NCBI GenBank assembly: GCA_937897085.1
Contig: CALCOR010000247.1
Coordinates: 1 to 10,405, forward strand
Origin: an uncultured euryarchaeote
Lineage (GTDB): Archaea > Thermoplasmatota > Poseidoniia > Poseidoniales > Thalassarchaeaceae
Reading direction: 5' to 3'
DNA length: 10,405 bases
The position numbers were made by a program, and so were the translations under genes. This document shows positions 1-10,405 of the stretch, one piece after another. Numbering within the stretch: position 1 is the stretch's first letter; the number at the start of each line of letters is the position of its first letter. The notes beneath the pieces are model-generated. The model saw only the letters and a list, made by a program, of their open reading frames with translations. It had not been told where the DNA came from and searched no databases.

Positions 1-35
1 CCCTGATAGCACACATAGCCCTATATGTGACAGGG
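1..35. repeat. Imperfect inverted repeat upstream of the first gene
   Basis: CCCTG (1-5) pairs with CAGGG (31-35), and CACATA (12-17) pairs with TATGTG (24-29). This gives 11 base pairs interrupted by an asymmetric bulge, with a 6-base loop. It overlaps the candidate TATA box, so it could be an operator-like site or the tail of an upstream transcript. No T-run follows, so it is not a classical terminator. It touches the window edge and may be fortuitous. Confidence 0.25.
20..28 (+). promoter_or_regulatory. Candidate TATA box for the double-zinc-ribbon gene
   Basis: The sequence CCTATATGT has a TATA-like core (21-26) centred about 26 bases before ATG 51. That is the usual archaeal TATA-to-start-site distance and would give a leaderless or nearly leaderless transcript. 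It sits inside an imperfect inverted repeat (1-35). The call rests on position and composition only. Confidence 0.35.
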
Positions 36-50
36 CGGGCTTCACCTTTG

Positions 51-1064
51 ATGGGCATCAATCCCCGCGGCGGTCGACGCAAGGCCGCTGAGAACATCGA
101 GGTCAAGGAAGGTGGTGATTGTCCGCGCTGTGGTGGTGGCAAGACACAATCGTCCATTCCCGGATATCTCGCGTGCTCTCGTTGCTCATACGAATGGAAA
201 GATCCAGATTTCACCCCAGTAGGTTCGACGACCGACAGAGCATCCGTTTCACATGATTCTGAACTGATAGAGCAATTCAAGACAGAACTCGAGAGCGGGG
301 GGGAGATTTCTAGAGTGCTTGGAATAGATCAGCAACTCACATCCGAGCAGGAAGGTGCTCTGACGCGGTTGCAGGGCAAGTGGATCGACGGTATGCAGGG
401 GCATTACGACCCCGCGCGGGATGAGCGGAAACCACTCATCATCGCCTTCGACGAAGATGATAACTTGCTCCAGACCGAGGTGGCATCACTCACCGTGGTG
501 AACAACGATTTCGACGGTGGTGAAGAGGTTCGCATCGAGTATCCGGGTCTCGGGACAGAGTTTTTCGGATTCGATGATGACGATGCGCACGGATGGCGCA
601 GGGGACGAACCGCGGAGGAGACAGCTCGCAACATAGCCACGGTCATAAATCGAAACAGCAAGTTGGTTCATGCGCATCATGACGGCGCCTCTGTCTCCTT
701 TGAACTACGCGACTCGAGATTGAACCCAGCGAGTCTGGTGCTGTTCATCGATGACCCCGGTGGCAAGGACCTGGTCGGAGAAAAGGGCGGAGTGTCACTC
801 GATCCTGATGACGTGACCTTAGAAGAGGATTACACTGCTGCCGTTGCACTGATGTTGGAAGATGGAATCATCACTCCTAGCGAGGATCAGTTGCTATGGG
901 CAATGCGGCAGAACCTCGACATCTCTGAAAAACGTCACATCAGGATTATCACCAGCCTGTTCGGAAACAGCGCGTTGAAGGAATGCCATGGTTGTGGTGG
1001 AAACGCCCCGTTTCAAGAGCAGCGTGGTGGTTGGTATTGTGACAAGTGCCGCATCTGGTTGTGA
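51..1064 (+). CDS. Uncharacterised protein with zinc ribbons at both ends
   Basis: I do not recognise a named family for this 337-residue protein. Seen: an N-terminal zinc ribbon with Cys24, Cys27, Cys42 and Cys45 (CPRC...CSRC) and a second one at the extreme C-terminus with Cys312, Cys315, Cys330 and Cys333 (CHGC...CDKC). Residues about 145-235 look like a beta-rich domain with a TAEETARNIATVIN segment, a pattern reminiscent of domains in phage tail or surface proteins, but this resemblance is weak. Residues 261-300 are helical and carry DGIITPSE followed by LDISEKRH, a short helical pattern I associate with archaeal proteins of unknown function. There is no signal peptide or membrane helix, so it is probably cytosolic. 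A GTG at 27 would add 8 residues; ATG 51 is preferred because a TATA-like element at 21-26 would place transcription start near it. It lies 91 bases upstream of the actin gene on the same strand, so co-regulation is possible but unproven. Confidence 0.8.
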   Translation: MGINPRGGRRKAAENIEVKEGGDCPRCGGGKTQSSIPGYLACSRCSYEWKDPDFTPVGSTTDRASVSHDSELIEQFKTELESGGEISRVLGIDQQLTSEQEGALTRLQGKWIDGMQGHYDPARDERKPLIIAFDEDDNLLQTEVASLTVVNNDFDGGEEVRIEYPGLGTEFFGFDDDDAHGWRRGRTAEETARNIATVINRNSKLVHAHHDGASVSFELRDSRLNPASLVLFIDDPGGKDLVGEKGGVSLDPDDVTLEEDYTAAVALMLEDGIITPSEDQLLWAMRQNLDISEKRHIRIITSLFGNSALKECHGCGGNAPFQEQRGGWYCDKCRIWL

Positions 1065-1155: not shown

Positions 1156-2181
1156 ATGGCAAAGGCTGAGACTCTCTACATCGGAGTCGACCTCGGAACG
1201 TTCCGTTCCGTTGTTGTCTCCAGCGAGAAACATGAGGAAGAGGTGCTGACGGTCATAGGAACCCCGAAAGATTCGATTGCCAAGAATTTCCTGAGGCGTG
1301 ACGTGCTGTTCGGTGAAGAGGCACTCAAGAACAGACTGGCACTCAACCTCTACCGCCCATTGGAACATGGGGTGATCAAAGACTCTCCTGAGGACAAGAA
1401 GTTCATCGCTCACTTCATCAACCACATGATCAACCTCACTGACCCCGAGAGCTACGGTCGCGTGGTAGCTGTCATCGGTGCTCCTGCAGAGGCCAGTCAC
1501 GTGGACAAGACTGCAATATTCGACGCTGCTGCCGGCACGGTGAACGCCTGTATGATCATATCCGAGCCCTTCGCCGTGGCCTACGCACTGGACATGCTCG
1601 AGCACACCATCGTGGTTGACATCGGTGCAGGCACCACAGACATCTGCCGCGTCTACGGTACGATTCCATCGCCGGAGGATCAGTTGCACCTGAACAGTTG
1701 CGGTGATGTCATAGACTCGATGCTGATTCAGGAGATTCAGCGGAAATACGCCGGTGCGCAGATCACAAAGGACATGGCGCGTCGCTGGAAGGAGCAGCAC
1801 TCCTTCACCTCGACTTCACCCCCTGACGACCCGATTATAGTCGAGTTCTCAATCGAGGGCAAAGCGATGTCTCTTGACATCACAGATTGCATGCAGGTGG
1901 CGTGCGAGGAGATCATCGCCCCAATCGTTGCTAACATCAAGGAATTGCTTTCCGAGTCCAACCCCGAATATCACGATCAATTCCGGCAGAACATCATCCT
2001 CGCTGGTGGCGGCTCTGCAATCCGTGGCCTAGGGGCTTCGCTCGAGGAACTGCTGGCGGACATGGGTGAGATCGAGGTACATATCGTCGAGGACCCTGTG
2101 CAACTCGGGGCGCTAGGTGGCCTCAGGCTTGCTCAGGAAGTTCCTGAAGAGTATTGGAAGAACCTCACGATTTCTGATTAG
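1156..2181 (+). CDS. Actin-family filament ATPase, MamK-like
   Basis: Predicted cytoskeletal ATPase of the actin/Hsp70 fold that would polymerise into filaments in the cytoplasm. Seen: phosphate-1 loop GVDLGT near residues 9-14, phosphate-2 loop VVDIGAGTTDIC around 153-164 and adenosine loop ILAGGGSAIRGL around 280-292, in the canonical order and spacing for a compact 342-residue bacterial-type actin. Beyond these general motifs, several stretches match my recollection of magnetosome MamK rather than MreB or ParM: GTPKD after the first domain, VVAVIGAPAEAS, ISEPFAVAYALD, GTIPSPEDQ, KEQHSF and the C-terminal RLAQEVPEEYW. No amphipathic N-terminal helix of the MreB type is evident. ATG 1156 is chosen because GGTGAG (1146-1151) stands just upstream; GTG 1147 would add MRT. 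The next gene is convergent 25 bases away. No other magnetosome gene is present. Haloarchaeal actins (salactin, volactin) are an alternative comparison. Actin family is near certain; the MamK-like subgroup is likely. Confidence 0.93.
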   Translation: MAKAETLYIGVDLGTFRSVVVSSEKHEEEVLTVIGTPKDSIAKNFLRRDVLFGEEALKNRLALNLYRPLEHGVIKDSPEDKKFIAHFINHMINLTDPESYGRVVAVIGAPAEASHVDKTAIFDAAAGTVNACMIISEPFAVAYALDMLEHTIVVDIGAGTTDICRVYGTIPSPEDQLHLNSCGDVIDSMLIQEIQRKYAGAQITKDMARRWKEQHSFTSTSPPDDPIIVEFSIEGKAMSLDITDCMQVACEEIIAPIVANIKELLSESNPEYHDQFRQNIILAGGGSAIRGLGASLEELLADMGEIEVHIVEDPVQLGALGGLRLAQEVPEEYWKNLTISD

Positions 2182-2819: not shown

Positions 2820-2840
2820 GGTGACTCCTTCAATGTCACC
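2820..2840. repeat. Inverted repeat in the divergent intergenic region
   Basis: GGTGAC (2820-2825) and GTCACC (2835-2840) form a perfect 6-base inverted repeat with a 9-base spacer. It lies between the divergent starts at 2803 (membrane zinc-ribbon protein) and 2890 (coaBC). The 86-base region is GC-rich with no obvious TATA box. The repeat is a plausible operator or short hairpin, but its arms are short enough to occur by chance. Confidence 0.25.
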
Positions 2841-2889
2841 CGCACCGACAGTCCCAAAGAGGGAGACAGTAGCCCGGAAGCCGGTTACC

Positions 2890-4086
2890 ATGAGTTCAGG
2901 GGACCGTACTGTAGAGCGCCGTTCTGAATCCTTGTCGGGTTACAAGGTGCTGCTAGGCATCTGCGGCGGCATCGCTGCTGTAGATTCCGTGCGTCTGCTG
3001 CGTGAACTGCGCAGGCATGGGGCAGACGCTACCGTGATCATGTCCTACTCTGCGCAGCGGGTTATATCCCCACTCGCCGTAGAATGGGCTGCAGGTGTCA
3101 AACCAGTAACCGAGTGGGGCGCTGAGATGGCTCAACTGGAACCCCATGACGCGGTTCTTGTGGCACCCGCGACTCGGCGTTGCCTCGCAGCCCATGTCCA
3201 TGGGGTTCTCGACACCCCACTACAGATGGCACTGAGCGCGGCGCGTGGTCGACGCGACCCAATCATGTTCGTTCCTTCGATGCACGATGACCTGTTCGAC
3301 GACCCGGTAACCGATGATCTGTGCCAAGCGGTTGTCGCCGAGGGTGCATCGGTGGTGTGGGGTAAGAGGGAAGAAGGGCGCTACAAGACTCCTGACGCGG
3401 TGCAGATTGTCGCTGATCTTTGCCATCTGGTTAATTCACGTAGGCCCGAGAGAAGGCGTGTCGTAGTGACACTGGGACGAAATCGAAGTCGCGTGGATGC
3501 TGTTCGTTGGATTACCAATTCGTCGACGGGCCGGACTGGATGGGTGATTGCGGAACACCTCTATAGAATGGGGCATACAGTAGATATCGTTTCAGGTGAA
3601 GTCACCAGCCAGCCAGCAATCGTACTACCATCAATCATCAATGCAGATGACCCAGAAGACATGCTCGGCGCACTGTTGAATCTCGCTGCATCGGACAATG
3701 CCCCTACAGCGTGGGTGCATGCTGCTGCGGTACTCGACTATGTGGTCGCTGAACCTGAATCCACGAAGGTCGCGAGTGGTGCAGAACAATGGGGATTGGG
3801 GTTAGTGCGTTCGACGAAGCATCTCGATGCATTGACACCACTTTGTGGTGATTGTTGCCGTATCGCCTTCAAGCTCGAATCAGGAGTGAGTGACGACCAA
3901 CTCATCGAATCTGCGAGATCACTGCTACAGAAGCATGACTTGGATGGTGTGGTGGCGAATCATCTTGAGGAGGTGTCGGGGAACACTGGCAGGAGGGGTC
4001 TGTGGGTGAGCCAAGATTCGGAACCCAAGTTGATATCCAGCCTCGATGAACTCGCCGAACTGATCGAAGCAGCCATCTGCGGGTGA
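2890..4086 (+). CDS. coaBC: CoaBC bifunctional phosphopantothenoylcysteine synthetase/decarboxylase
   Basis: Makes 4'-phosphopantetheine for coenzyme A: the CoaB half ligates cysteine to 4'-phosphopantothenate and the FMN-binding CoaC half decarboxylates the product. Seen in 398 residues: CoaC about 17-180 with GICGGIAA (23-30), VAPAT (91-95) and PSMH (129-132); CoaB about 188-398 with VRWITNSSTG (205-214), HAAAVLDY (267-274), Lys283, FKLE (317-320) and VVAN (344-347). The length matches archaeal fused CoaBC. Odd points: the position of the bacterial catalytic His (GHIEL in E. coli Dfp) reads AEMAQ, so Glu79 appears to replace it; the PAMN motif Asn reads His132; and the Cys-containing substrate clamp is GKREEGRYKTP. 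The last two may be normal for archaea. Start ATG 2890 is preferred by family N-terminus; GTG 2821 and ATG 2833 lie upstream in frame and would lengthen it into a Pro/Lys/Arg-rich stretch. It heads a cluster with the small membrane protein and proS. Confidence 0.93.
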   Translation: MSSGDRTVERRSESLSGYKVLLGICGGIAAVDSVRLLRELRRHGADATVIMSYSAQRVISPLAVEWAAGVKPVTEWGAEMAQLEPHDAVLVAPATRRCLAAHVHGVLDTPLQMALSAARGRRDPIMFVPSMHDDLFDDPVTDDLCQAVVAEGASVVWGKREEGRYKTPDAVQIVADLCHLVNSRRPERRRVVVTLGRNRSRVDAVRWITNSSTGRTGWVIAEHLYRMGHTVDIVSGEVTSQPAIVLPSIINADDPEDMLGALLNLAASDNAPTAWVHAAAVLDYVVAEPESTKVASGAEQWGLGLVRSTKHLDALTPLCGDCCRIAFKLESGVSDDQLIESARSLLQKHDLDGVVANHLEEVSGNTGRRGLWVSQDSEPKLISSLDELAELIEAAICG

Positions 4087-6584: not shown

Positions 6585-7526
6585 TCAAGCCTTGCGTGCA
6601 ATGGCCCTACGGGCCGCTGCTATGATGTAGTCACTGTTCAATCCGTATTTCTCGAGCAGTTCGTCACCATCTCCTGACTCACCGAAGGTGTCGTTCACCC
6701 CCACCCTCTCAAGTGGTACGGGGCAGTTGGCTGCCAGCAACTCAGCCACAGCCCCGCCAAGACCACCGATTATCGAATGGTCTTCAGCGGTCACTAGCGC
6801 GCCACAGTCTGCGGCAAGCCTCTGAACCAATGCAGAATCCAGCGGTTTGATGGTATGCATGTCCACCACGGTGACTTCGATCCCATCGCGCGAGAGCTCC
6901 TCGGCGGCTGTCATAGCCTCACCCACGAGAACTCCACACGCGAGCAGAGCAACGTCGATTCCTTCGCGCAACACATGCCCCTTGCCGATTCTCAGTGCAG
7001 CGACAGACTCATCGTCATGGATTCGAGGACGCTTGTTGCGCGCCGTGCGCATGTAGGATGGGCCGGACAACGCAGACAGCAGCACGGTGAGGCGTTCGGT
7101 GCTGATGTCATCGCAGGGGTGCATAACCGTCATGTTAGGGAGGGTGCGATAGATGGCCAGGTCCTCTATCGATTGAGCCGAGGAACCGTCCGTTCCCGTG
7201 TGCAGCCCCCCATGTGATCCACACAGGTGCACAGCGTGATTTGGGCGTGCGATTCCATTGCGAACCTGTTCGAATCCACGTTCGGTGAAAATGGCGAATG
7301 TGGAGGCGAATGGCTTGTATCCAGAAGAGGCGAGACCTGCAGCAACCAGCATCATGTTCTGTTCTGAGATACCTAGAGAGAATGTTCGTTCTGGATACAT
7401 CTCACGAAATCGGCAGGATTTGGTGGACTTTCCCAGATCCGCTTCAAGAACAACCACTCGCTCGTCGTCAGCAAGTTGCATCAGCCCTTCTCCATAGCCG
7501 TCACGTGAGGCCACCAATGCGGTCAT
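6585..7526 (-). CDS. tkt: Transketolase, C-terminal subunit
   Basis: This half carries the pyrimidine-binding and C-terminal domains of a split thiamine-diphosphate transketolase, which moves two-carbon ketol units between sugar phosphates. Seen in 313 residues: VVVLEADLGKST (24-35); LGISEQNMMLVAAGLA (51-66) with Glu55 as the expected cofactor-activating glutamate; FASTFAIFTERGFEQVRNGI (73-92); GSHGGLHTGTDGSSAQSIED (103-122) with His105, His109 and Asp113; PNMTVMHPCD (130-139); and a C-terminal domain from about 180 with VVDMHTIKPLD (220-230) and AEDHSIIGGLG (247-257). The ATG overlaps the N-half stop as ATGA (7523-7526), so the subunits are probably translationally coupled in equal amounts. 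In archaea without the oxidative pentose branch this enzyme typically supplies pentose and tetrose phosphates for nucleotides and aromatic amino acids. A relative acting on another sugar phosphate cannot be excluded. Confidence 0.94.
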   Translation of the reverse strand: MTALVASRDGYGEGLMQLADDERVVVLEADLGKSTKSCRFREMYPERTFSLGISEQNMMLVAAGLASSGYKPFASTFAIFTERGFEQVRNGIARPNHAVHLCGSHGGLHTGTDGSSAQSIEDLAIYRTLPNMTVMHPCDDISTERLTVLLSALSGPSYMRTARNKRPRIHDDESVAALRIGKGHVLREGIDVALLACGVLVGEAMTAAEELSRDGIEVTVVDMHTIKPLDSALVQRLAADCGALVTAEDHSIIGGLGGAVAELLAANCPVPLERVGVNDTFGESGDGDELLEKYGLNSDYIIAAARRAIARKA

Positions 7527-8365
7527 TGCAACTCCTCCATCGCTTGCTCCAGTTGTTCATCGGAAGGAGCCGCGCCGTGGAATGAGGGATTATCCTCCAT
7601 GAATGATACACCCTTACCCTTCACTGTGTGAGCGATGACCACGGCCGGGCCGGTGTCTACACCGTCCATCCATTGGATAGCTTCGAGGACCTCTGTCATG
7701 TCGTGCCCATCGATCTCCCGAACCGCCCATCCGAATGCAGCCCACTTGGCCGGCACATCGAACATGCGCATCTGTTTGTCCACGAAGTCGTCATTCTGGA
7801 TGCGATTTCGGTCAACGAACACCTTCAGGTTGTTCAACTCGTGATGAGCCGCGGACATCGCCGCCTCCCAGACTTGTCCTTCCTGCAACTCACCGTCACC
7901 GAGCATCACGAAGACCGTCCGCTTAGAGGCGTCAAGCCGCGCAGCGAACGCGCATCCAATACCAAAGGAGAGGCCCATTCCGAGGCTTCCCGCCGAGAAG
8001 TCCACCCCTGGTGTCCAACCACTGTCCACGTGACCCTGACAGATGCTGCCCAACTTGCGGAATGAGTCGAGTTCTTCCGCCTCGAAGAAGCCACTGTGAG
8101 AGAGGATGGAATACATACCCGGAGATGCATGGCCTTTGGACATGATGAACCGATCACGATCGGGCCAGTCTGGTTCTTCAGATCTGACGCGTAGTCGGGT
8201 ACAATAGAGCGCAACGAGCATGTCGATGGCTGACAGGGATCCGCCGGGGTGACCCGCACCTGCTTTGTGCACCATGCTCACAATCGCCCGGCGACATGCC
8301 AGAGCGACAGATTCCAGTTCTGCGACTTGGGGTTGCCCCTCCGTGCCGCCTGCATCCATACTCAT
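7523..8365 (-). CDS. tkt: Transketolase, N-terminal subunit
   Basis: This half binds the thiamine diphosphate pyrophosphate and pairs with the C-half encoded immediately downstream. Seen in 280 residues: GHPGGSLSAIDML (38-50), MSKGHASPGMYSIL (75-88), GSLGMGLSFGIGCAFA (116-131), the ThDP/Mg motif beginning GDGELQEG (146-153) and ending near NRIQND (177-182), HTVKGKGVSFME (226-237) and His243 in SFHGAAP. ATG 8365 is chosen because GAGGGA stands 7 bases upstream on this strand; ATG 8392, 8371 and 8359 are in-frame alternatives differing only in an unconserved N-terminus. The OPT transporter ends 55 to 82 bases upstream on the same strand, so read-through is possible. Splitting of transketolase into two adjacent genes is widespread in archaea and also occurs in bacteria. 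Confidence 0.94.
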   Translation of the reverse strand: MSMDAGGTEGQPQVAELESVALACRRAIVSMVHKAGAGHPGGSLSAIDMLVALYCTRLRVRSEEPDWPDRDRFIMSKGHASPGMYSILSHSGFFEAEELDSFRKLGSICQGHVDSGWTPGVDFSAGSLGMGLSFGIGCAFAARLDASKRTVFVMLGDGELQEGQVWEAAMSAAHHELNNLKVFVDRNRIQNDDFVDKQMRMFDVPAKWAAFGWAVREIDGHDMTEVLEAIQWMDGVDTGPAVVIAHTVKGKGVSFMEDNPSFHGAAPSDEQLEQAMEELQ

Positions 8366-8447
8366 CGCCATGTCCCTCGGTCGTGGGGCCATCCGCGTCA
8401 GCCTTTGATGGTTTCTTCAGCGGTCACCCGCGTCAACTCCCGCGACC

Positions 8448-10405
8448 TCACTCCTTGTGAGGTACTGATGCCGCCTTCACCAAGCGTCGACCGCCATCGA
8501 CCGCCACTCGCCCCCAGTCCGCCAGCAGGCTGAACGGACCGCCACCTCGAGGTAGTTGGCGTGTGGCCAACCATGTGAATACACCGAAGAACCAGAGGAA
8601 GAACGCTACGGACAACGCAGGGCCCAAAGTGCCCATGAAGGGGAACCAATCCCAAGGCGGCTTCCACGCTATGATGAATACAGCGACGAGAACGCCCATC
8701 AGCGCTTCGCCGGCTATCATTCCAGCCGAGAGCAACAACCCGCGACTGGCGATCGTCTCGCCCGCCGTGCTCGCTGCCTCACTAGGCACTCCTGCGAGGG
8801 TCCCATCGATGCGGTAGTGTGCAGCCCGAACCACGAGGTGGTTCAGAATGCCCCCGAGGAATATTGTGGCGCTCAGGTAGATGGGGAGGTACATCCCGAT
8901 GGCTACCGACATGACTGGTAGTCCGCGCCAGATGATGATGACGGCGATGAGTGCACCCAAGGCCAGCATCGGGGAGTTGACAGTGCCGCCGAACAATCCT
9001 TCGATGAGTGTGCCAATGATCTCTGCCTGAGGTGCTTCAAGTGCGTTGTCGCAGCTAGGATCGTTGGGTAGAGGATTAGCGGCACAGTAGGTTGGAGTGA
9101 TGCGGAAGGCCTCGTTGAGTACAGTCAGCGTCAGCGGAGCCACCATCGCTCCGACGAGCACCCCTACAAGTTCAGCAATCTGCTGCTTCCATGGAGTCGC
9201 CCCCAGCAAGTGCCCGGTCTTCAGATCCTGCATCACGTCTCCGGCTATCGCCGCGTTGACTGCCACGACAGATGCGATGATGAGAGTGGCGAACATCAGG
9301 TCGTCCTGCTCCATTCCCAGAATTATCCCACCCACTATCCAGACAATCAACGAGGTCGCCATCAGGGTGGCGATTGTCATCCCAGACACAGGTGAGTTCG
9401 ATGACCCCACCACACCGGCGATGTAGCCTGCGACAGCGGAGAAGAAGAAAGCGGTGATTGACAGGAAGATTGCGCCGACTATGGCGAGCAGGAGGGAACC
9501 GGTTTTCCACCAGTAGAAGAAGAATGTAAGCACGGCGATGATGATCAGGCCGATGAACGCTCGCTTCATGGGTATATCCCGTTCAGTACGCGGGACCTCG
9601 TCACCAGTGGAGCCCATGTCCGCTTTGATCGCCTTCATGAGGCCACTACCAATCGACTTGCGCATGGAGAACAGAGTCCACAACCCTCCCACGACCATGC
9701 ATCCGACTCCGACGAAGCGGATGTGAGTCGCCCACAGCGTCTTGAATCCGTGTGCGATGTCCTCATCCGCAGGCCAACCGTGGATCAAGCCGTAAATCGG
9801 TGTCAGAATGAAAACACCGAGGAAGGCACCGAAGAAGATGTACGAAGCGATGCGCAGTCCTACGATGTATCCCACCGCGATGAGAGAAAGTGAGAAATCC
9901 AGCGATGCGTAGATTCTGGTCCCGAGAACTTCGAACGCATGTTCAATCTTGGACTCTGTGAGTTTGAATCCTTTGACGAACCACCCATAGATGGCTCCAA
10001 GACCGAGCGCATAGAGGATGACAATCAGTGATGAACCGCCCTTTTCCCCCGCAACCAACACCTCCTCACATGCGATTCCTTCTGGATAGAGAAGTGCCTC
10101 TTCAACAATGAACACCCTGCGCAGGGTGATCGTGAATATGGTGCCCAGTACACCACCAAGACAAGCGACGATGAATGTCGTCAGTGTATCCATTTCACGC
10201 CCCATCACGAGTAGGGCAGGCATCGTGAAGATGATTCCAGCAGCCAGGCTTTCGCCAGCCGAGGTCATGGTCTGTACGACATTGTTCTCGAGGATGCTGA
10301 CATCCTTGAAGCGCAGTAGCCTGAGCACAAGCATCGACATCACAGCGGCTGGGATGGATGCCGAAACAGTCATTCCGATGTACAGTCCGAGATAGGTGTT
10401 GGCCG
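8448..10405 (-). CDS. OPT-family oligopeptide/metal-chelate transporter (5' end outside window)
   Basis: Polytopic membrane transporter of the oligopeptide transporter (OPT) family, whose members bring in small peptides or metal-siderophore complexes, typically with protons. The reading frame stays open to the window edge (ANTYLGLYIG before the Met at 10373), so roughly the first helix or two are missing. Numbered from that Met: SIPAAV (6-11), NNVVQTMTSAGESLAAG (30-46), FTMPALL (49-55), YPEG (96-99), VVGSSNSPVSGMTIATL (341-357), GDVMQDLKTGHLLGATPWKQ (388-407), LPIYLSATIFLGGILNHLV (486-504) and a WFFGVFTWLATRQLP end. The GSSNSPVSG and DLKTGHLLGA motifs are hallmarks of the prokaryotic OPT branch. 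About 12-14 hydrophobic segments are visible. A loop near 435-460 holds two cysteines (440 and 451), possibly extracytoplasmic. Substrate cannot be read from the sequence. A peptide role suits a heterotrophic marine archaeon. Confidence 0.93.
   Translation of the reverse strand, partial: ANTYLGLYIGMTVSASIPAAVMSMLVLRLLRFKDVSILENNVVQTMTSAGESLAAGIIFTMPALLVMGREMDTLTTFIVACLGGVLGTIFTITLRRVFIVEEALLYPEGIACEEVLVAGEKGGSSLIVILYALGLGAIYGWFVKGFKLTESKIEHAFEVLGTRIYASLDFSLSLIAVGYIVGLRIASYIFFGAFLGVFILTPIYGLIHGWPADEDIAHGFKTLWATHIRFVGVGCMVVGGLWTLFSMRKSIGSGLMKAIKADMGSTGDEVPRTERDIPMKRAFIGLIIIAVLTFFFYWWKTGSLLLAIVGAIFLSITAFFFSAVAGYIAGVVGSSNSPVSGMTIATLMATSLIVWIVGGIILGMEQDDLMFATLIIASVVAVNAAIAGDVMQDLKTGHLLGATPWKQQIAELVGVLVGAMVAPLTLTVLNEAFRITPTYCAANPLPNDPSCDNALEAPQAEIIGTLIEGLFGGTVNSPMLALGALIAVIIIWRGLPVMSVAIGMYLPIYLSATIFLGGILNHLVVRAAHYRIDGTLAGVPSEAASTAGETIASRGLLLSAGMIAGEALMGVLVAVFIIAWKPPWDWFPFMGTLGPALSVAFFLWFFGVFTWLATRQLPRGGGPFSLLADWGRVAVDGGRRLVKAASVPHKE

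Follow-up and report, generated by a model that had tools for sequence, protein, structure and literature searches.

The window (the whole stretch of 10,405 nucleotides that was analysed) carries on the forward strand, at 1156..2181, a gene for a MamK-like actin of 341 amino acids, here called actin A, with an ATG at 1156 and a stop codon at 2179-2181; translation could alternatively begin at an in-frame GTG at 1147. A gene for a zinc-ribbon protein (family F1) precedes it on the same strand at 27..1064 (345 amino acids as called from the GTG at 27, with an ATG at 51 also possible). The three ATP-binding loops of actins that had been claimed for this protein in the earlier note were each aligned with a MamK counterpart, namely a phosphate-1 loop, GVDLGTF (residues 10-16, 1183..1203; MamK GIDLGTS), a phosphate-2 loop, DIGAGTTD (residues 155-162, 1618..1641), and an adenosine motif, GGGSAIRG (residues 284-291, 2005..2028; MamK GGGSRIRG), all on the forward strand. 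By the alignment to MamK, E137 (1564..1566) is the equivalent of MamK E143, and D155, in the phosphate-2 loop, is the equivalent of MamK D161; in MamK, E143 has a catalytic role and D161 a functional one. The E137 column held Glu in 130/130 rows of actin A (window copy counted twice), in 9/9 rows of its paralogue actin B and in 66/67 other family rows, and the D155 column held Asp in 206/206 alignment rows. D274 (1975..1977) occupies the position of MamK A278, at which a change to Asp yields a non-polymerising Magnetospirillum MamK according to the title of PDB entry 5ljw.

Convergent to actin A, a gene on the reverse strand at 2207-2857 (family F4, near actin A in 8/10 loci) encodes a small hydrophobic protein with a zinc-ribbon-like C-terminal end. 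A CoaBC-like pantothenate metabolism protein is encoded on the forward strand at 2821-4086 and, because its score of 197.8 bits fell short of the 219.7 cut-off, was regarded as a divergent form. Transketolase is encoded on the reverse strand at 6585-8392 by two adjoining genes for its N-terminal and C-terminal halves. As the earlier note had stated, the window held no mam gene other than actin A (Pfam on ten ORFs; NCBIfam on eight of them).

MamK was the top match of actin A by sequence, profile and predicted fold. The NCBIfam MamK profile matched with an E-value of 1.4e-109, far beyond chance, and the solved MamK (PDB 5ljw) matched over residues 6-337 with an E-value of 3.9e-75; BeeR (1.7e-45) and then MreB (8.6e-15) were the next best. 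Seven stretches likened to MamK in the earlier note were all colinear in the alignment with solved MamK (actin A/MamK: GTPKD/GYPKD, AVIGAPAEAS/AVIGVPARAS, SEPFAVAYALD/SEPFMVGYGLD, GTIPSPEDQ/GTVPGPEDQ, KEQHSF/KEQFSF, AGGGSAIRGL/AGGGSRIRGL and RLAQEVPEEYW/RLAEELPPQYW). The model predicted an actin fold with MamK-type architecture, and the equivalents of E143 and D161 were present. Actin A scored 366.2 bits against the MamK model NF040964, below its cut-off of 400 bits, as did near-full-length Poseidoniales A and B proteins (305-376 bits), and in the phylum survey only SG225.bin14 (genome G212, 435.5 bits) lay above it. Actin A differs from MamK in having no mam genes beside it in the window, with zinc-ribbon, subtilase and coiled-coil genes as the neighbours of the Poseidoniales actins instead, in that most Poseidoniales carriers have two paralogues, and in the Asp at the A278 position.

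The closer relation to MamK claimed in the earlier note was upheld against MreB, salactin, volactin and eukaryotic actin by profiles, PDB alignment and fold. The three-stranded BeeR of Verrucomicrobiota was 33% identical to actin A in structural alignment, and the score against NF053558 (219.4 bits) was under the cut-off of 530; BeeR has a disordered N-terminal extension of 30-50 residues, as described in PMC11929497, whereas actin A has none, its core beginning at residue 6. For MreB, the broad model PF06723 (MreB_Mbl) gave 97.2 bits (E 1.1e-27; cut-off 27), whereas the subfamily models were far from reached (99.7 of 293 for PRK13927 and 87.2 of 365.75 for TIGR00904), and Thermotoga MreB was 25% identical. 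A further difference from MreB is that MGII cells are reported as cocci; in databases, some of the proteins described here are already titled 'rod shape-determining protein'. Salactin and volactin are, like actin A, archaeal proteins of actin fold. The salactin model PF25229 gave 50.9 bits, above its broad cut-off of 27.1. A special kinship to salactin or volactin, which had been suggested as well, was not supported: the salactin equivalog NF053533 gave 53.7 bits, far under its cut-off of 400, and volactin (PF25216) 27.5 bits, below its Pfam cut-off of 35, against 366 bits for MamK, and the salactins sat on a very long branch.

The F1 protein comprised about 340 residues across loci, with pairs of cysteines close to the N-terminus and at the C-terminal end. 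Its gene lay directly upstream of actin A in 10/10 loci compared (the actin itself being split in L030) and in 26/28 named loci taken for Poseidoniales; at L113 a short frame took that place, and at L122 F1 was two genes off on the opposite strand. No actin frame was recognised at L093. F1 was found in 79/79 genomes with A and in three genomes with B only, and in 0/61 actin-lacking genomes, bar two weak matches in G003 to part of the C-terminal half. All 12 members scanned weakly matched Zn_ribbon_IS1595 (best E 6e-6; 19-20 of 25.4 bits in two members), and weak matches near the C-terminus were to ENT in 8/12 (best E 0.01) and to TerB in 5/12 (best E 0.0018). The predicted fold was a low-confidence model (pLDDT 68.9, pTM 0.52) with no clear structural match, the best lying at a TM of about 0.2. 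A thiolase-family gene was also upstream in the A loci compared, except in L027 and in the window and L029, which are cut by contig ends; one such thiolase, searched in eight genomes lacking actin A, gave weak matches (E 1e-5 to 1e-3) in four and none in four. The thiolase was set aside as a partner of actin A, the cluster being a mixture of different thiolases and metabolic in appearance.

Actin B was accompanied by other genes. In 9/9 loci the order on one strand was subtilase, actin B and coiled-coil gene; in a tenth, L171 (genome G051), one additional gene stood between actin B and the coiled-coil gene. Actin B and the coiled coil were about 4 kb apart in G054 and on different contigs in G095, and in G142 B was found with no coiled-coil match. 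The large subtilases matched Peptidase_S8 in the two scanned; their Asp and Ser patterns were recovered in 9/9 and the strict His pattern in 6/9 by motif scan, and a hydropathy scan placed a hydrophobic segment near the C-terminus in 9/9. In its complete form the coiled-coil protein was about 385-440 residues long, and in each of three members tested its 3.5-residue hydrophobic signal reached, or came close to, the extreme of 500 shuffles. The stretch GPRSxSAEHxYL...RNREYexxRRRERRLH was almost invariant in all nine aligned, and Pfam returned scattered weak matches only. This long form was found in 79/80 genomes with B and in no other genome, several copies being split or partial (in G046, just 62 residues next to actin B). 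Another 31 genomes, all without actin, had a short form whose match covered only about the first 160 residues.

Six of the 31 short-form loci, chosen for the short form, were fetched (G020, G102, G004, G071, G022 and G010). At all six, family F11 adjoined the short coiled coil (about 155-178 residues) with no subtilase or actin between; at L169 the short form was placed by search match, the ORF caller having taken an overlapping frame. At the five loci with a continuing contig, F12, F45 and F32 followed on the other side, as at L037 and L044, two f1 loci that carry B. On the F11 flank, F14, F13, F20 and F26 of the B-bearing loci recurred in L164, L165 and L169 with extra genes interspersed; L167 had F13 and F20, and L168 had other genes within the fetched stretch. 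L166 was cut by a contig end and had F32 on the F11 side, and is therefore rearranged. At this site, in these six loci, subtilase and actin B are jointly absent and the coiled coil is shortened. The most economical interpretation is that some f1 genera lost these genes, since the full set occupies the same position in both families.

Both actins were searched in 145 genomes of the order, an even draw from a larger group. The actin A query matched in 87/145 genomes, three of them weakly (E about 1e-4), and the actin B query matched in 84/145 at E 1e-20 or better. In the tally of 145, which includes the split A copies of G018 and G025 and some other partial copies, A was present in 79 genomes, B in 80, either in 84 and both in 75; the nine genomes with only one may be partly due to incomplete assemblies. 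Family f2 held 71 of the 84 carriers and f1 the other 13 (genera g1, g2, g4 and g7), and of the 61 non-carriers the 54 that appear in a listing were without exception f1; genus g2 has both states, with G003 and G069 lacking A and B. On the basis of genome size, f2 probably corresponds to MGIIa and f1 to MGIIb. Surveyed across Marine Group II, as envisaged in the earlier note, the gene and its neighbours were present order-wide in a conserved archaeal gene order, and the recurrence of this order across Poseidoniales genomes bears out the view that the genome is archaeal.

The MamK model was also run over 243 genomes of the phylum, and close matches were restricted to this order and G212. In the rest of the class no genome matched (five are listed without a match). 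Other matches in the phylum were weak (E 2e-10 or worse) and nearly all in frames of 380-690 residues. A replacement actin was considered for the genomes lacking A or B and rejected; those listed gave only weak matches (E 1e-7 to 2e-4) in frames of 381-649 residues, which were taken for Hsp70. Elsewhere in the Thermoplasmatota, two weak matches fell in a single actin-sized frame of 334 residues (G210:C34 20457-21278). The G212 contig is recorded as Thermoplasmata archaeon SG225.bin14, a genome listed with 7% contamination, and its actin lies near archaeal-type RNA polymerase genes and a TsaD/Kae1-like gene (translations judged by eye).

For the trees, an initial 215 rows were reduced to 85 on identity and length and then to 55 and 54 by hand; left out were L057, L094 and L102 (internal stops), the L030 copy with its frameshift, and L045, a duplicate. 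A and B each formed one group in a quick 85-row tree with MreB, BeeR and salactins, and lay with BeeR outside a 66-row MamK group (support 98). In a careful 55-row tree, A, B and BeeR were grouped (94/98) near SG225-type actins (support given as 88-89 or 88-94). BeeR formed a long branch next to B (88/77), and the placement of A and B near BeeR is unstable. Without BeeR (54 rows), A and B formed one group at 93/77, sister to the remaining MamK-like rows at 59/56. Salactins were on a long branch in all three trees. A clade of the Poseidoniales actins and the SG225 pair was rejected on the 54-row tree (AU p 0.004; group picked after seeing the trees). The archaeal branch of MamK-like actins suggested in the earlier note thus stands as far as the Poseidoniales A and B group, and fails as one that would take in the SG225.bin14 actin; Methanoperedens has another actin again. 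The favoured, though unproven, origin of A and B is a gene duplication on the lineage that led to Poseidoniales, and transfer between domains at some depth is likely.

We lean, at a little over an even chance, towards a general reading in which the A/B filament system serves to position complexes in the cell and not to align magnetosomes or set a rod shape. Actin A would be an ATP-binding, filament-forming actin of MamK type and, with B, would make up a two-actin system of Poseidoniales in which both polymerise with ATP. The part of the coiled coil that is missing where B is missing would bind or cross-link the filament, and the B filament would be tied to the membrane and help to place or organise envelope-linked complexes. 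The likeliest client would be the subtilase with its C-terminal hydrophobic segment, which we name with much less confidence than the general reading, and the zinc-ribbon protein may regulate or adapt A. The support in hand is similarity, predicted fold, kept catalytic positions, order-wide conservation, gene order and co-occurrence (A with B, A with the zinc-ribbon gene, B with the long coiled coil); recurring same-strand neighbours of MamK-like actins outside Poseidoniales count in its favour too. Against it stand the Asp at residue 274, the exceptions to the B/coiled-coil arrangement in G051, G054, G095 and G142, and the want of a clear fold match for the zinc-ribbon protein; the co-occurrence counts are inflated by shared ancestry, and neighbour genes need not be partners.

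An envelope-positioning filament is favoured because MGIIa is coccoid, archaellin does not track the actins, the Mad28 system offers a parallel, and salactin and volactin have the roles that they have. PMC6864105 describes MGIIa cells as coccoid and about 0.7 um, with MGIIa and MGIIb apparently similar in morphology and genomes of about 1.9 Mb in MGIIa and 1.4 Mb in MGIIb. An archaellum link was rejected as a simple explanation, archaellin being present in only 7/13 actin-bearing f1 genomes and in 16 f1 genomes without actin. In Desulfovibrio magneticus RS-1, MamK and Mad28 act jointly with coiled-coil Mad proteins, so that two actin-like and coiled-coil proteins form one positioning system (PMC12748827); its cargo is magnetosomes, and the likeness to the Poseidoniales set is one of composition. 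Volactin affects disk formation, and its filament tips bind the membrane, according to PMC10869688.

One rival, which we regard as unlikely, is chromosome or plasmid partitioning, in which A and B would move or anchor DNA like salactin or ParM. MamK is the nearest relative of salactin in published trees (PMC10746226), salactin aids DNA partitioning at low chromosome copy number (PMC10869688), and the partner of A has zinc ribbons, one of them weakly like a transposase zinc ribbon. Against this, no recognised partition gene was fixed beside A or B in the loci compared, where neighbours were partly annotated, related genomes manage without both actins, B lies next to a subtilase gene whose product has a hydrophobic segment near its C-terminus, and salactin itself is distant from actin A.

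A role in cell shape, division or surface growth, like that of MreB, volactin or crenactin, appears improbable. The MreB_Mbl match above its cut-off would fit, as would the position of MamK-like genes after an N-acetylmuramoyl-L-alanine amidase gene in Nitrospirota, Bacteroidota and others, by which the MamK-like family may serve envelope growth. MGIIa and MGIIb are similar in morphology, yet the carriers are mostly f2 and the named non-carriers f1; the coccoid MGIIa and similar MGIIb speak against a rod-shape role, as does the MreB subfamily score far below its cut-off.

Rather more improbable is that the protein acts as a scaffold or as an ATPase switch and has lost the ability to build long filaments. 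This would account for the acidic residue at the A278 position in 120/130 A rows (Asp in 115, Glu in 5), yet such a residue is common there in the family (30/67 other rows), B has Pro, Ser, Thr or Ala (nine rows), and both the catalytic positions and the predicted fold are preserved. A leftover or hidden magnetosome system, recent acquisition from a magnetotactic bacterium, or contamination would explain the high MamK similarity and is very improbable given the order-wide presence in conserved archaeal gene order, the lack of mam genes in the window, the separate lineages of A and B, and named relatives that, among the best 80 of 163, are mostly Planctomycetota and Poseidoniales-type, none of them titled Magnetospirillum.

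Few archaeal lineages have a known cytoskeleton. Two MamK relatives, each accompanied by partner genes of its own, occur in many archaea of Marine Group II and suggest an internal skeleton, so far undescribed, with another job; a two-actin system with co-inherited partners would offer testable cell biology for these uncultured and very abundant archaea of the surface ocean. Presence and absence inside one family, with flanking genes in common, is a natural comparison. The second paralogue, the partner genes and the absence pattern are beyond what the earlier note could know. No description of an actin in Poseidoniales was found in the titles and abstract starts of the best-ranked open-licence literature, and actin, MreB or cytoskelet had no match in the main text of PMC6461757 or in the transcript paper PMC9723583. 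Both 'Poseidoni' and 'cytoskelet' occur in PMC9258230. Poseidoniales copies may have been noticed in the salactin study, because its passages give 28 archaeal matches annotated as MreB, with taxa unnamed (PMC10746226).

In a scan of a species-genome collection, the best 80 of 163 relatives were, besides Poseidoniales-type records, mainly Planctomycetota, with Nitrospirota, Latescibacterota, Gemmatimonadota, Bacteroidota, Acidobacteriota, Schekmanbacteria and unnamed bacteria also represented; archaea beyond Poseidoniales were one Thermoplasmata and two Methanoperedens. A 2020 paper by Cavalier-Smith (PMC7203096) mentions MamK actin ancestors in Planctobacteria.

At 24/50 non-Poseidoniales loci, BLAST clustering gave a common same-strand upstream family ending <=400 bases from the actin match. 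These loci were mostly from Planctomycetota (for example L064 7127-7918, L069 7131-7943), and inspected members were coiled-coil-like with a C-terminal motif xSIYRxVQGL...IFxANL; the cluster may be partly false, because coiled coils give false similarity. Between Poseidoniales, Planctomycetota and SG225, coiled-coil proteins were compared by BLAST clustering. Another upstream gene lay within 400 bases at 12/50 loci and encoded an N-acetylmuramoyl-L-alanine amidase (Amidase_3) in 6/6 scanned (L055, L062, L065, L085, L089 and L101, from Nitrospirota, Bacteroidota, Gemmatimonadota and Acidobacteriota), the called amidase and actin frames overlapping in L055, L062, L065 and L085. At both Methanoperedens loci an Arch_fla_DE protein was encoded directly downstream of the actin (E 4e-17; L084 8997-9566, L107 9057-9656), and a link of that filament to the archaellum or polar cap is possible. 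In SG225 the downstream gene encodes a highly charged protein of 618 residues, with a 154-residue stretch without Pro and Gly.

From these recurring neighbours we tentatively draw the broader reading that MamK-like actins may be a widespread filament class, with magnetosome alignment as one special use. Its general job would be to link a cytoplasmic filament to an enzyme of the envelope through a coiled-coil adaptor devoted to that task, the enzyme being an amidase in several bacterial phyla and a subtilase in Poseidoniales, and Poseidoniales A and B would be the archaeal form, an unreported cytoskeleton. MamK would then sit within a broad actin class, here mostly outside Magnetospirillum, with coiled-coil proteins and envelope enzymes as frequent neighbours, and the origin of magnetosome filaments would become testable.

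Several individual records deserve mention. The Arch_fla_DE protein of L107, with its archaellar FlaD/E domain, has a coiled-coil-like tail. L122 is from a record titled Deltaproteobacteria bacterium AH-558-G13. Its contig encodes an actin A of Poseidoniales type, the zinc-ribbon protein and a prolyl-tRNA synthetase resembling the one in the window, and the record is probably mislabelled. In G025, a single contig, actin A was in two frames (query 5-153 and 155-340; L030 ~7942-8957; G025:C1:1175441-1176447), either as a pseudogene or through sequencing error. In G103 and in G109 a complete actin B was present twice, on different contigs, through either a true duplication or a mixture of strains.
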